A DNA stretch of 64,000 nucleotides from positions 248,001 to 312,000 of the forward strand of contig JAHCHL010000001.1 of NCBI GenBank assembly GCA_026129745.1, read 5' to 3'. Positions within the stretch are counted from its first letter, which is position 1. Each line of letters begins with the position of its first letter. Source of the DNA: Fimbriimonadales bacterium. Lineage in GTDB: Bacteria; Armatimonadota; Fimbriimonadia; Fimbriimonadales; ATM1. The notes beneath the pieces are model-generated. The model saw only the letters and a list, made by a program, of their open reading frames with translations, was not told the DNA's origin and made no database searches. This document shows, one piece after another, positions 34,707-42,087 of this stretch. The position numbers and the translations under genes are program-made.

Positions 34707-35072
34707 TCATTCCGCCGGAGTCAACGTGGCCCGGAGTGAAGGTTCCATAAACCTCCACGTGACAATGGAGTGGGAAAAGCGCTTGGTTCTGTCCCAAATC
34801 CACCTCTCTATGTTGATCGACTTCGGCCTCCACAACGGAGGTTTGTCATTGAGACCCCGACGGTCCGGTCGGTCGAGAATGGACTCGAAGCGCGCTTTGA
34901 CCTCCATGAAGTCCAAGGCCCTGCCTGATGAGGGATAAACTAACCCATCCACGTACCGGCAGACTCGAAAAGAATGCCGGTTTAGACCTCCGCACTGATG
35001 GCCTACATGACATCGAGGCAACCAGCTTGGGACTTCGAAGGTGAACTCTTTGAAGAATTCACACCGAGACAC
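34707..35072 (-). CDS. Degenerate QueD/6-carboxytetrahydropterin synthase homologue
   Basis: 121 residues, the same length as E. coli QueD, GTG start. Colinear with QueD from FFKEFTFE through GHQCGGLNRHSF, GRALDFMEVKARFESILDR, PDRRGLND and NIERWIWDRTKRF. QueD makes 6-carboxytetrahydropterin on the path to preQ0. Here key positions differ: of zinc ligands H16/H31/H33, only H33 remains (S16, N31); Cys27 and Asp70 remain but catalytic His71 is Arg. It is therefore a pseudoenzyme or a decaying gene. It is divergent from nurA, 94 bp away. Comparison with QueD is from memory. Confidence 0.75.
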   Translation of the reverse strand: MSRCEFFKEFTFEVPSWLPRCHVGHQCGGLNRHSFRVCRYVDGLVYPSSGRALDFMEVKARFESILDRPDRRGLNDKPPLWRPKSINIERWIWDRTKRFSHSIVTWRFMEPSLRATLTPAE

Positions 35073-35101
35073 GAGTTACCAGGCAATTCATTACATCGGA
35101 A

Positions 35102-35130
35102 CTGACTTTCTCGGCTACGAATTGTATAAT
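35102..35130 (+). promoter_or_regulatory. Promoter of the nurA-herA operon
   Basis: TATAAT at 35125-35130 (full -10 consensus) with CTGACT at 35102-35107 (4 of 6 to TTGACA) and a 17-bp spacer. Start of transcription would fall near 35137, leaving a ~30-nt leader with GGAGGG before the ATG at 35167. Confidence 0.8.
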
Positions 35131-35166
35131 ACTTTGGATTTGAATACACGCGTGGAGGGACGGAAT

Positions 35167-37020
35167 ATGTCAACCCTGTCCAACATCTTTGAAAGCTACT
35201 CCGGATCGCTGAAGTTTTCCCGAGGCAAGTACGACGATGCCTATCGATCCAGGGCGAAGAATGCAGCAATCTTCTATGACGACTTTCTGAATAAACTAAT
35301 TTGCCAGTTCCATCCGGCGTTTTCCAGTCAAATGGCGCGAGCCGCATTGCACAGGGATATAGAGGCGTTCTTTGGCTCGGAAAAGCTCGATTTCGTTGCT
35401 ATAGACGGCACTTGCGCGAAAGACACTTTCCAAGACTTTGTAGTCTTCTCGGCGTGTGCATATGGTGCCAAGGGCCAAGTCGCGCTTTCAGAAGATCCGC
35501 CGCAAATCCGATATCAACGGTGGACTATGGAGAAAGATGTTTCCATGGTAGCTTACATGCCGGTACCGTTTGTTGAATTTGCAGACATTGTTGATCCGAG
35601 GTATCAAGAAGAGTCGTTTTGTGCCAGCGAGAGTGAACGCGTTGACATGGCGCGAATTGAAACGCGCATGATGGAGCTAGCCGAAATTTACTTGGCGTAC
35701 AACGTTGCGACATCGTCGAGTATCGAGTCACCGAAAGTGATACTGTTAGACCGGTCATTGAGTGGTATGTTCGCTGATCTGGCCCTAAGTGCACGAGATG
35801 TTCCAATGGTCGGTTACCCTTTTGATGGTAGGGGTTTGACCTACCAGGATGCGGTCATCGCACTCGCCCATCCATTCAACGAGTCAGCCAAGATTCCAAG
35901 TCTGAAGCGGTTCAGGCGTCACACCGCGTTCATAGCTGCCGCGCACTTTCAAAAGTCACAAGAGCTCGACTTGAAGGCCTTGGCCAAAGCCCACGGAATG
36001 GCGATATCCGATTTACACGAAGCGGTCGAAAGGATTACGAAAGATGAGCCGATTGCCGTTGAGTCGGAGATCGCAACCCTGCGATTTCACACTTCTCTAA
36101 ATGCGTCATGGGACTACAGCGTTCGACTGTTTCAGTCGATTTGCAAGAAACTCTTTATGGACAAGGACCAAACGGCGCTATTGTACGAGTCGCCAGATGA
36201 AGATGGTGTTTTACGCCAACGCTGGATGTCGCCGGATGATCTGCGATTTCTCATCGGTGTGGGTTTACGGGCACTCGTGGAGGAGTGTTGGTGTCGCGGG
36301 ATAATGTTGATCGGGATTACAAAGGACTCTTCATCAGCTTACTTCAGCCGGAACTACTTGGGAGTGATGAAGGAGTTAGCTTTCCTCGCAAAAGGTGGGT
36401 ATCCAGACCTCGCAGAGTTGAGCGTTGCACCCCTGCCCTGGACTGATCGGATGTTGCTGGAATTCCTTCCTCACGCAGACTCCGAACTAAAGGCACCTTG
36501 GTCAACTGTTGAATTTGATTCGACCTTTATGACGGTGCGCGTAGTGCAAGAAGCCGACGGAAGGCGCAGGATTCGAGGAGGATATGCGGATGCTGTGGCC
36601 CAAGAGAATTTGTTTGCAAAGTCGTTGGCTCAATTCTTTTTGAGCAGATCAAAGGGTGAGCCTATGGCAGGCCACGTTGTATTTGTGGACAGATTGTTGC
36701 ATCCTATGCTCGACTCCCAGCTCATGCATAACCTGCCCATCGCGAGTCCAGCGATTGGTAACTTATTGGCCTTTTCTCAAGCCACGAATGCAGTACCCAA
36801 TAACAGTCAAAGTATGATGATGTACATTCTCGATGTGCTAACCAGAAACCTGTATCCGGAGATGATCGGTTACCCAGACCCACTCCACAAAGCAGATTGG
36901 GGTGCGAAGACAGTTGGCAGAAAGATGAAGGACATTATTGCATCGTCAACTTTCTCATTTCGCGCCAACCCGTTGGCAAAGACTGCAAGATCAATAAGAG
37001 ACGAAAGGGGTAGAAGGTAA
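35167..37020 (+). CDS. nurA: NurA-domain nuclease
   Basis: 617 residues from ATG 35167 (GGAGGG 7 nt upstream, just after the promoter); the frame extends to 35041 but overlaps the divergent gene. NurA features: LDFVAIDGTCAKD (first catalytic Asp), ILLDRSLSGM (second Asp), LIGITKDSSSAYF, and a C-terminal IGYPDPLHKADWGAK like the 'GYPxPLxxADxxA' end. NurA is a 5'-3' nuclease that works with HerA. It is larger than archaeal NurA (~350), with an added middle region. The stop overlaps herA (TAATG). Confidence 0.85.
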   Translation: MSTLSNIFESYSGSLKFSRGKYDDAYRSRAKNAAIFYDDFLNKLICQFHPAFSSQMARAALHRDIEAFFGSEKLDFVAIDGTCAKDTFQDFVVFSACAYGAKGQVALSEDPPQIRYQRWTMEKDVSMVAYMPVPFVEFADIVDPRYQEESFCASESERVDMARIETRMMELAEIYLAYNVATSSSIESPKVILLDRSLSGMFADLALSARDVPMVGYPFDGRGLTYQDAVIALAHPFNESAKIPSLKRFRRHTAFIAAAHFQKSQELDLKALAKAHGMAISDLHEAVERITKDEPIAVESEIATLRFHTSLNASWDYSVRLFQSICKKLFMDKDQTALLYESPDEDGVLRQRWMSPDDLRFLIGVGLRALVEECWCRGIMLIGITKDSSSAYFSRNYLGVMKELAFLAKGGYPDLAELSVAPLPWTDRMLLEFLPHADSELKAPWSTVEFDSTFMTVRVVQEADGRRRIRGGYADAVAQENLFAKSLAQFFLSRSKGEPMAGHVVFVDRLLHPMLDSQLMHNLPIASPAIGNLLAFSQATNAVPNNSQSMMMYILDVLTRNLYPEMIGYPDPLHKADWGAKTVGRKMKDIIASSTFSFRANPLAKTARSIRDERGRR

Positions 37021-38855
37021 TGTTTCAAAAAGGCATGAAAGGGACGTTGATGCGAATTGAGGAGGCTGCCGAAACTCGCTATAAGTACGAGATCTGGTTT
37101 GACTACACTCGTCAAGCAATGACGACGATCAGTGAAGGAGCGATGGTGGCAGTAGCGAACTTCGCCTCGACTCGCGAAGAACGACACTATTCAATTCTGG
37201 AGATTGCCAGCCTATTGCCGGTTCACTACGCGCTAGGTAATGACATCAGCGGTTACCCAGGGTTTGTTATGGAAGCCGCGAAGAGTGCAGGCCAGGACTG
37301 GGTATCGCAAGAGAGAGAGGCGACCGATGAGACGACGAAGATTAAGTGCATCGCCATACCGACTAACATCGAATGGATTGAGCGGCATGGAGTGACGGAA
37401 GTCATTCGCAAGGACTTCCAACAGGAGAGTAGTATCCCCATGGTGGGGCACGACGCGCTACCACTAGACTCTGAGGCAACGAGCATCGTCGCAAACCTTA
37501 ATATCGATGAAGCACATGATAAGGTCACTAACATTGGCACACTTGTTAGAGATGATGACGTTCCTGCTCTCCTAAAAGTTGACGAGCTGGTTCGCCTACA
37601 CTATGGGATATTTGGCTTTACTGGCGCAGGCAAATCAAATCTGCTAAGCACCTTGGTCGCAAGTGTGTTAAGTGTCGAAGAATTCCCATGCAAGGTCGTC
37701 ATCTTCGACCTGCTTGGCGAGTTTTCAACATTGCTGATTGACCAGTTGTGTTCGATGAAGGCAGCCGCAATTCTGAATCTCGGCCTGCAGACCGTGCCGG
37801 AAGCCGTTGCTGACTACTACCGTGACCCGGAACGGCCTCCTGCGAAGTTGCAGGTGGCATCGAAAGCGTATGCGCGAACATCAGTTTGCCCACGACCTCT
37901 GCTTGCACTAAATGACGAGCGAGAGGAAGCCTTTTCGAGATTACTCATTGCCAGAAAGACGAGGTTTTTGGCATTGCCCCCGCCATCTATGCGGGACATC
38001 CTCATTGAATGCAAAGAGGTTATAAAAGGCAACATGGGCAATGACGGCAGGGCAGTCGATTCGCTACTGAGGAGCTTGAAAGATAAGTATGGCCAGAAGA
38101 GTGTGGCTGACGCACTTAAGGATTGCGTTTCTGAGTGTGAGAGATTACTCGAAACGCTTACTGTTAGGACGGCGCAACAAAACATGGAACAGGTTGTCTC
38201 TAAGCTCAAGGAGTACGATCGTGCGGAACAACAAGAATTGCCAACGGATGTCTTGTTTAGTTTCGATGACGTAAAGAAAGTCCTCAACGATGAAACAAAG
38301 AGCTGCCTTCTGATCATCCAGTCCCATGACCCCGACGAGCTTAGATCCCTCAGTCTAAGACTTGTCAACTCAATGTTTGGCAATAGGCGATTGTCGGGGA
38401 GAACTGGTCCACCCGTCACATTCCTTTTCGACGAGGCAGATGAGTTTATTCCTCGGCAAGCCGATAAAGATTCAAGCCATGCCAAGTCCAGAGCAGCAGC
38501 GACCACTCTTGCCCGCAGAGGCAGGAAGTTCGGACTCGGACTGGGCATTGCAACACAACGAATCGCCCACCTTGACGCGAGCATTTTGGCTCAGCCTCAT
38601 ACATACTTCGTTTCTAAGTTGCCGCGTCAATACGATCGTCAAGCTGTCTCGGAAGCGTTTGGGTTTACAGAGGAGAACTTCCGACAAACGTTTAAATTCA
38701 AGAAAGGCGACTGGCTGCTGGCGAGCTACGATGCTGCAGGATTGGAAGCGGTCCCAATACCAATCCACTGTCCAGATGCGAACGAGCGAATAAGAAGGTT
38801 CCTATTGAGTCTCAACAAGGACACGGACAAACAATTTGAGTTGCAATCGCCTTAA
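37020..38855 (+). CDS. herA: HerA-like hexameric DNA translocase ATPase
   Basis: 611 residues. An N-terminal HAS-like barrel (about 1-170) precedes the RecA-type core. Walker A is GFTGAGKSNLLSTL (about 199-212), Walker B FLFDEADEFIPR, and an Arg-rich RRGRKFGLGLGIATQR segment typical of HerA/FtsK ATPases; a long helical insertion lies between the motifs. HerA pumps DNA through a hexameric ring and stimulates NurA. Overlaps nurA by 1 bp and the next gene by 20 bp. Confidence 0.93.
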   Translation: MFQKGMKGTLMRIEEAAETRYKYEIWFDYTRQAMTTISEGAMVAVANFASTREERHYSILEIASLLPVHYALGNDISGYPGFVMEAAKSAGQDWVSQEREATDETTKIKCIAIPTNIEWIERHGVTEVIRKDFQQESSIPMVGHDALPLDSEATSIVANLNIDEAHDKVTNIGTLVRDDDVPALLKVDELVRLHYGIFGFTGAGKSNLLSTLVASVLSVEEFPCKVVIFDLLGEFSTLLIDQLCSMKAAAILNLGLQTVPEAVADYYRDPERPPAKLQVASKAYARTSVCPRPLLALNDEREEAFSRLLIARKTRFLALPPPSMRDILIECKEVIKGNMGNDGRAVDSLLRSLKDKYGQKSVADALKDCVSECERLLETLTVRTAQQNMEQVVSKLKEYDRAEQQELPTDVLFSFDDVKKVLNDETKSCLLIIQSHDPDELRSLSLRLVNSMFGNRRLSGRTGPPVTFLFDEADEFIPRQADKDSSHAKSRAAATTLARRGRKFGLGLGIATQRIAHLDASILAQPHTYFVSKLPRQYDRQAVSEAFGFTEENFRQTFKFKKGDWLLASYDAAGLEAVPIPIHCPDANERIRRFLLSLNKDTDKQFELQSP

Positions 38856-40002
38856 ATCGACAATCCTCGGCACAAAGCGGCTGCGACTCCCTGCTTTCTT
38901 CGCGGGATACCGCTTAGGTGACTACCCTGAATCTGGTCTGAAATGCATGCCATGGGATTTCACGCGTACAGAGGCTCTTCTAATTAACGCGTATGACTTT
39001 ACCAGGCCGCGTTTTAACAAGCTGGTAATGAACGGCTGGACACCGTCAAAGTACCTCAAAACGGGAAAACGGCCTATCATCATTGATTCTGGAGCCTACT
39101 ACTTTGTTCGGAAGTCAAATATGACAGTAACGCCGAAGGAGGTATTTGATCTGCAAAGAAGGTCCAAGGCAGATTTAGCAGTAATACTTGACCATCCATT
39201 TATACCAGAAGCCAACGACAAGGACAAACGCATAAAGCGGACATTGGCTAATACTCGAGTTATGCTGAAAGAGGCTCAGTCTGCGGATAGCTCGCTCGAA
39301 TTGATGCCCGTTATTCACGGACATAATCGAAAGCAATTGAGTGATTGTTTGCAGGGTATTACTCGACAAGTTGAGAAGTATGGCAGTGGCGATCTGAGGA
39401 GAATAGGTATTGGAAGTATTGCACCGCTTGCTCAGAGGGGAAATGCCGCGATGGCCGTTGAACTGATCAACATTGTCAGGGAGCTTTGTCCGCAATCGCA
39501 TATTCATTGCTTTTCGATGGGTTCAGGGCTCCTCATGCTACTTGCGTTTTTGGCGGGCGCAGATTCCGTTGATTCGCAGAGCTGGATGGTTAGCGCAGCG
39601 TTCAAATACGCACAATTACCAGGAACTCACGTAGTTCGATTGGGCCCTCGGGACTACAAGGATGTCCACAGTTTCAAGACCGCAAAGAAAAGCTTCGCAG
39701 AGCGTATTCTGAAACTTGCAGGTGATGAAGGTTTTTTTGTCTGCGACTGGATGAGGGGCGTCAAAATGAATTGCTCACAACTTTCGGAGGCATTAGATTA
39801 CGTTGATGAGTTAGTTGATCATAAGAGCAACGAGAACGTTCACAATCGAGCCTGTCACAACCTTTGGGTATTCAACTGGGAGGCTAATCAATACCGAGAT
39901 TCAATCGCTCGCGGTGGCGAAATCACATTTGTCCAGTCGAGGATCCAAGGAACGAGGTATGAAGGCGCTCTTGAAAAGTTAAAGGGACTACTAGGTGGTT
40001 GA
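38836..40002 (+). CDS. tRNA-guanine transglycosylase-like (DpdA/TgtA5-type) base exchanger
   Basis: 388 residues, TTG start overlapping herA by 20 bp. TGT barrel features: IIIDSGAYYF with Asp84, AVILDHPFIPEAND (D119), PVIHGHNRKQL, RIGIGSIAPLAQRG and ADSVDSQSW with Asp246, which aligns with the TGT nucleophile. The TGT zinc motif CxCxxC is not visible; only C303, C313 and C340-H341 appear, with HNLWVFNWEA matching the C-terminal helix. TGTs swap guanine for a 7-deazaguanine in tRNA; DpdA relatives do so in DNA. Which nucleic acid is used here is unknown. Confidence 0.8.
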   Translation: MSCNRLKSTILGTKRLRLPAFFAGYRLGDYPESGLKCMPWDFTRTEALLINAYDFTRPRFNKLVMNGWTPSKYLKTGKRPIIIDSGAYYFVRKSNMTVTPKEVFDLQRRSKADLAVILDHPFIPEANDKDKRIKRTLANTRVMLKEAQSADSSLELMPVIHGHNRKQLSDCLQGITRQVEKYGSGDLRRIGIGSIAPLAQRGNAAMAVELINIVRELCPQSHIHCFSMGSGLLMLLAFLAGADSVDSQSWMVSAAFKYAQLPGTHVVRLGPRDYKDVHSFKTAKKSFAERILKLAGDEGFFVCDWMRGVKMNCSQLSEALDYVDELVDHKSNENVHNRACHNLWVFNWEANQYRDSIARGGEITFVQSRIQGTRYEGALEKLKGLLGG

Positions 40003-40450
40003 CAATCGCTTGCTCATTCTGAGTTGTTCTTCGAGGAAGGTCGCGGCAATTGGCGCAGTTTCAGCTTGGGAGCTCTATGACGGCGTGTTCTTTCGAGTTG
40101 CTAAAAAGACCCTTGGCTCGCGTCCGCCAATGGGTGGACTCCATATTCGCATCCTGTCCGCGAAATATGGTTTGATTGAGCCGGAATCGATGATTGAATA
40201 CTATGACGAGAAGATGTCACGTGAGTTGGCTCAAATGCACCGCGAGTATTGCATCAATCAATTGTCAAGACTCTGTAAGCGAACAAAATTTGACAGCGCA
40301 CTCGTGGTGTGCGGAAAGGCTTACGTGGCTTCTTTGTCTCCCATCTCAGAATGGGCCCCAGCAAACCTTGCAGTAGAACTTCCGCCCGGTGGAATTGGCA
40401 AGAAGCTGCAAAGGCTCAAAGGTTGGCTACAGGAACTCACAACGTCTTAG
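39995..40450 (+). CDS. DUF6884 domain protein
   Basis: 151 residues, GTG start, 8-bp overlap with the TGT-like gene. LLILSCSSRKVAA, SAWELYDGVFFRVAKK, HIRILSAKYGLIEPES and YYDEKMS are the DUF6884 (YaaA-like) blocks. DUF6884 proteins often sit beside TGT-like genes; their activity is not established. A 7-deazaguanine-handling enzyme is an inference from context. It ends the operon, followed by a terminator. Confidence 0.85.
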   Translation: MVDNRLLILSCSSRKVAAIGAVSAWELYDGVFFRVAKKTLGSRPPMGGLHIRILSAKYGLIEPESMIEYYDEKMSRELAQMHREYCINQLSRLCKRTKFDSALVVCGKAYVASLSPISEWAPANLAVELPPGGIGKKLQRLKGWLQELTTS

Positions 40451-40454
40451 AATG

Positions 40455-40484
40455 AAAAGCCCCACTCTAACGAGCGGGGCTTTT
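40455..40484. terminator. Bidirectional terminator between island and 16S rRNA
   Basis: AAAAGCCCC (40455-40463) and GGGGCTTTT (40476-40484), extended by CTC/GAG inside. Plus strand is followed by TTTTTGAG for the DUF6884 operon; minus strand reads GGGGCTTTTC after the 16S processing arm. Stops are convergent here. Confidence 0.85.
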
Positions 40485-40488
40485 TGAG

Positions 40489-40505
40489 TCCTTGAGCCGG
40501 TTGGA
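40489..40505 (-). other. 3' arm of pre-16S processing stalk
   Basis: In the 16S transcript this arm reads TCCAACCGG-C-TCAAGGA and is complementary to the 5' arm at 42182-42200 (TCCTTGA...CCGGTTGGA), about 16 pairs with a 2-3 nt bulge. It encloses the whole 16S, as RNase III-type stalks do. A further hairpin, GTTCCTGC/GCGGGAAC, sits at 40531-40552 between the arm and the 16S 3' end. Confidence 0.7.

Positions 40506-40575: not shown

Positions 40576-42087
<1,512 letters not shown>

Follow-up and report, generated by a model that had tools for sequence, protein, structure and literature searches.

Four overlapping genes in the genome of a Fimbriimonadales bacterium encode a NurA-like nuclease, a HerA-like translocase, a TGT-like base exchange enzyme and a DUF6884 protein (Table 1). 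The TGT-DUF6884 pair is found again in distantly related microbes, next to other systems that attack DNA, and the operon therefore probably represents an undescribed form of DNA-marking defence. The specific reading that we favour, to which we give an even chance, is a Dpd-like 7-deazaguanine DNA modification-restriction cassette with HerA-NurA as effector. In this assignment we infer the DNA substrate, the identity of the base, the direction in which the mark discriminates and the role in defence.

Layout of the operon and identity of its proteins

The window, i.e., the whole stretch of 64,000 nucleotides that was analysed (G000:C1:248001-312000), belongs to a draft genome of 2.6 Mb. The ORF coordinates agree with the proposed four-gene operon: on the plus strand, nurA, herA, tgt and the DUF6884 gene follow each other with head-to-tail overlaps of 1 bp (at 37020), 20 bp (38836-38855) and 8 bp (39995-40002), and codon use is host-like in all four genes (scores 0.125-0.199). 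We place the start of nurA at the ATG at 35167, from which its homologues align; a longer ORF begins with GTG at 35041. The single terminator at the operon end is borne out by a strong RNA fold. Of the "one consensus promoter" described by a sequence-only reading of the stretch, a site with 10 of 12 matches and a perfect -10 element is present, but sites of this class are not more frequent than in shuffled sequences. No defence-island neighbours are evident around the operon, the adjacent genes having been read by eye. Downstream, the operon converges on a 16S rRNA gene (40576-42086, minus strand) that stands alone, as no other rRNA was found in 24000-52000 and no tRNA near the 16S gene.

Table 1. 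Features of the operon and its immediate surroundings in the window.
Feature	Position	Strand	Evidence
Decayed queD, neighbour, judged outside the system	34707..35072	-	Residue losses, codon score, not beside the cassette in relatives
Candidate sigma-70 promoter, CTGACT-17-TATAAT	35102..35130	+	10/12 matches; site count not above shuffles
nurA-like nuclease, 617 aa	35167..37020	+	Pfam NurA in homologues, Foldseek, conserved D80 and D195
herA-like hexameric translocase ATPase, 611 aa	37020..38855	+	PADLOC HerA 1.1e-87, DUF87 4.9e-17
TGT-like base exchange enzyme, 388 aa, new clade	38836..40002	+	PF01702 1.4e-13, Foldseek
DUF6884 (YaaA/DpdC-like), 151 aa	39995..40450	+	PF21818 5.1e-16, PADLOC PDC-M57A 6.8e-12
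Intrinsic terminator	40454..40485	+	RNA fold -20.4 kcal/mol, z -5.35

The HerA-NurA identity of the first two products holds. HerA also matches solved HerA structures, and nine further loci that were examined show NurA and HerA adjoining in this order. The window NurA on its own matches Pfam NurA weakly (0.015, below the cut-off), and all nine of its homologues match the family (best 3.4e-8). The best eight Foldseek matches of the NurA model are all NurA structures; the AlphaFold model itself is poor (pLDDT 46) and is counted as weak support only. HerA threads dsDNA into NurA with cleavage of both strands, and an antiviral role has been proposed (PMC12977600).

A TGT fold, the absence of which would have spoken against the proposed function, is predicted for the third protein by a Foldseek match to archaeosine TGT (1iq8, 9.5e-11; model pLDDT 72), and D84, D119, D246 and H341-N342 align with the canonical catalytic and metal-binding positions. 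The CxCxxC zinc motif is absent from all four aligned TGTs of this type (clade A), which keep the His; the motif is present in the DpdA proteins and in most canonical Tgts of the alignment. In the tree, the four proteins form a clade of their own (99/95) that includes neither DpdA nor canonical Tgt, and clade A reaches 27.5 bits against the DpdA model NF041059, the cut-off of which is 200 bits. The nearest compared proteins by profile score are the second TGTs of haloarchaeal islands (2e-20), and the best-scoring models are those of archaeosine tRNA TGT (TIGR00432, 66.5 bits). The latter would suit a second tRNA or RNA guanine transglycosylase with DUF6884 modifying the base and with nurA-herA adjacent by coincidence. 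We consider such an RNA substrate unlikely, since the enzyme, with its 388 residues, falls far short of the 582 residues of its archaeal tRNA counterpart, a canonical Tgt is encoded elsewhere in the host genome, and DNA helicases, nucleases or methyltransferases accompany the pair in several contexts. The canonical Tgt of the host (L041:1450-2574, G000:C2) also lacks the CxCxxC cysteines, which are kept in the Tgts of genomes G162, G184 and G292.

The fourth protein scores 59.5 bits against the DUF6884 model (cut-off 30 bits) and matches DpdC weakly (0.0026). It carries CxxxK and SAxxGL (as LSAxxG), i.e., the motifs that Pfam names for DUF6884 (PMC11701544), and both are also found in the DpdC of genome G059. 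DUF6884 has already been listed, in a published survey, among the domains that occupy DpdC positions in dpd islands (PMC11888242). TGT-linked DUF6884 proteins score low against the Pfam model and are therefore a DUF6884 subgroup. DUF6884 alone was rejected as a marker of the system, a TGT lying beside or within only 3 of the 18 DUF6884 loci of the phylum.

A QueD homologue, divergent and 94 bp away from the nurA start codon, had been counted as a fifth member. The distance and the family likeness stand (PTPS match 2.7e-7; phmmer 4.6e-23 to PDB 2oba), and the ORF resembles gamma-proteobacterial QueD. Neither a working enzyme nor co-conservation could be upheld: two zinc ligands are replaced (H16 by S, H31 by N) as is a catalytic residue (H71 by R), the C-terminal motif is gone, the codon score (-0.012) is not coding-like, and the cassette has no adjoining QueD in the relatives. 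We thus reject this ORF as a source of precursor and read it as a decayed queD that is not part of the system. The host has an intact tandem PTPS gene adjoining folE, and a clear queC, elsewhere in its genome. In this PTPS gene (L050:871-1902, G000:C6), as in its counterpart in G162 (L049), two PTPS/QueD domains are fused in tandem in one ORF.

Recurrence of the cassette and of the TGT-DUF6884 pair

The five-gene set does not recur, whereas its four-gene subset does. Among 291 genomes of the phylum, this type of nurA is present in 11 and this type of tgt in two, and the four-gene set is likewise confined to two. The second is G162 (Fimbriimonadales SKYB14), from another family of the order, where nurA-herA-tgt-DUF6884 stand in the same order at an unrelated locus adjoining groES-groEL, with identities of about 47, 44, 48 and 34%, respectively. 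The G162 herA (L023:8931-10880, minus strand) is interrupted by an in-frame stop after about 50 codons, which in this draft MAG might be an error or decay. A TGT-like candidate in G001 was rejected: it proved to be another protein, set among genes of plasmid type, and does not represent this system.

In genus g92, which belongs to a further family, nine genomes carry nurA-herA but gave no match to TGT or DUF6884 in its vicinity, and mutS is near in most of these loci. Thus, nurA-herA can occur by itself, with the TGT pair apparently added to it. Moreover, QueC and PTPS are lacking in the three g92 genomes tested, so the nuclease needs no mark there; this argues against a strict dependence on the mark. 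The main difficulty for the favoured reading is that HerA-NurA exists by itself elsewhere and thus need not kill a host whose DNA is unmarked, which a dependence of the nuclease on DNA ends could explain. QueC and PTPS were found in the hosts G000, G291 and G292, and the contrast in preQ0 genes between TGT-bearing and HerA-NurA-only genomes is consistent but confounded by phylogeny.

The proximity of mutS would also agree with DNA repair, in which HerA-NurA resects ends and damaged or abasic bases are handled by TGT together with the YaaA-like DUF6884, with no self/non-self role. Deinococcus HerA-NurA has been linked to recombination (work cited in PMC12977600), and binding to DNA lesions is reported for YfjM, a DUF6884 protein (PMC11701544). 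Nonetheless, a repair function seems improbable to us, given that the four-gene set is sporadic (2/291) and that TGT-DUF6884 pairs occur on plasmids and beside restriction genes.

Beyond the phylum, one scan of 84,980 species, which reaches close relatives only, had among its hits two Planctomycetota MAGs (L030 and L031) with a TGT 50% identical to that of the window. In L030, DUF6884-tgt lies directly upstream of the DISARM-like helicase DrmD (1e-211), followed by DrmMI (E 0); in L031, the same DUF6884-tgt precedes this helicase, whose gene is cut off by the contig end. Across 343 Planctomycetota, the TGT profile found only G291 and the NurA profile found none, the latter in a search run without a positive control. 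Neither TGT nor NurA was found in the phages, plasmids and viral contigs searched.

Pairs or fusions of DUF6884 with TGT types other than that of the window extend this pattern. Within the same order, G105 encodes a DUF6884-DpdA fusion (L070:8981-10681) on an integrative element with recombinase and integrase; the fusion gene is preceded by that of a protein with a match to PADLOC PDC-M14A. A plasmid of Deinococcus taeanensis carries a DUF6884-TGT fusion (L074:6975-8945) followed by dpdE and dpdF, with no dpdB listed. A Natronococcus plasmid (L084:395-20610) combines helicases, PLD, a DpdA-like TGT, DUF6884, a second TGT, a BrxC/D-like ATPase and a queuosine precursor transporter, and a Natrinema plasmid combines DUF6884, TGT and an ATPase. 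The last was considered as a possible HerA and rejected, being a GHKL ATPase. In the Natronococcus island, two of the helicases are giant and the two TGTs differ; second TGTs similar to its own occur on eight haloarchaeal plasmids. TGT and DUF6884 are a conserved pair that, in distant phyla, is linked to partners acting on DNA, i.e., HerA-NurA, DrmD-DrmMI, DpdE-DpdF or a set of helicase, PLD and BrxC/D-like ATPase. The pair thus resembles a portable "writer" that has been combined with varied DNA-attacking machinery.

These contexts bear on an opposite polarity, in which the cassette targets phages with 7-deazaguanine DNA, TGT and DUF6884 recognise or remove the base, and HerA-NurA degrades the DNA so exposed, in the manner of a type IV-like system. 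Base exchange is reversible, and since HerA-NurA also occurs by itself in genomes that lack preQ0 genes, sparing of a mark is not required of it. Furthermore, 7-deazaguanines protect the phages that carry them (PMC6884629). However, TGT-bearing hosts make preQ0 themselves, and the pair is also found beside DrmMI, a self-marking methyltransferase, and beside DpdE and DpdF, restriction parts that are paired with self-marking. We give an eraser little weight compared with a writer of a self mark.

Proposed function and relation to known systems

In the favoured reading, the TGT-like enzyme would swap guanine for preQ0 in DNA, with preQ0 supplied by folE, queD, queE and queC genes of the host located elsewhere. 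DUF6884, as a short DpdC-like enzyme with a YaaA fold, would act on the inserted base, probably by the reaction of DpdC, from nitrile to amide (ADG). The HerA ring translocase would thread dsDNA into a NurA dimer that degrades it, such that HerA-NurA would spare marked self DNA, or fail to engage it, and destroy incoming DNA that lacks the mark. We are somewhat less confident in the wider proposal of a compact four-gene restriction-modification system, in which the new TGT clade and DUF6884 write the mark, HerA-NurA enforces it, and the pair is swappable among effectors in bacteria and archaea. The restriction-like or self/non-self module suggested earlier thus keeps the TGT fold, the DNA-processing partners of the pair and the preQ0 genes of the host in its favour, features to be expected of a Dpd-like base-modification module, and loses QueD as a member.

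If true, 7-deazaguanine marking of DNA would extend beyond Dpd, and the writer pair would be a module that moves between HerA-NurA, DISARM-like and Dpd restriction machinery. DUF6884 would gain a testable function, the DpdC-like conversion of dPreQ0, and for bacterial HerA-NurA both a role in defence and a defined self mark would follow. With four genes, the operon is small enough for direct cloning and assay.

The closest parallels are Dpd and BRC (BREX-Related Capture); the operon is outside both by strict membership (for Dpd, the DpdA cut-off and DpdB) and works like both. In Dpd (dpdA-K), DpdA inserts preQ0 in DNA, DpdC converts it to ADG, and restriction genes enforce the mark (PMC12839542). 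A TGT-family enzyme, a YaaA-fold enzyme with CxxxK and SAxxGL, preQ0 supply and a helicase or nuclease partner are common to Dpd and the operon. The operon differs in that its TGT belongs to a separate clade without CxCxxC, its effector is HerA-NurA, and DpdB and all of DpdD-K are missing; no DpdB match was found among the five proteins of operon and QueD-like neighbour. BRC combines a HerA/FtsK translocase and a TGT in one locus, with proposed 7-deazaguanine self-marking (PMC12839542), and thus the combination is not wholly new. HerA and TGT are published together within larger BRC systems. BRC has PglZ, DUF6079, a STAND NTPase, DUF4007 and GNAT, none of which is in the four-gene operon; PglZ, DUF6079, STAND and DUF4007 gave no match among the operon proteins, and the flanking ORFs were read by eye. 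Conversely, the operon has NurA and DUF6884, whereas DpdC homologues are reported absent from BRC (PMC12839542).

The likeness to DISARM class 1 lies in the related TGT-DUF6884 pair that adjoins DrmD-DrmMI in Planctomycetota; there is no DISARM gene in the window operon, and DrmA-C were not seen on the short Planctomycetota contigs. Tdp, in which TdpC acts with TdpAB, has a similar working, pairing a HerA-like translocase and a nuclease with a DNA modifier, but its mark is a phosphorothioate and not a base. By Foldseek, the likeness to Tdp amounts to one non-significant match (8wfd). HerA-NurA of archaea and Deinococcus and the HerA-SIR2 and HerA-DUF4297 defence pairs have in common with the operon a HerA ring whose partner enzyme is encoded adjacently. 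Unlike these known pairs, the operon adds a base-modification pair, and its NurA is only distantly similar.
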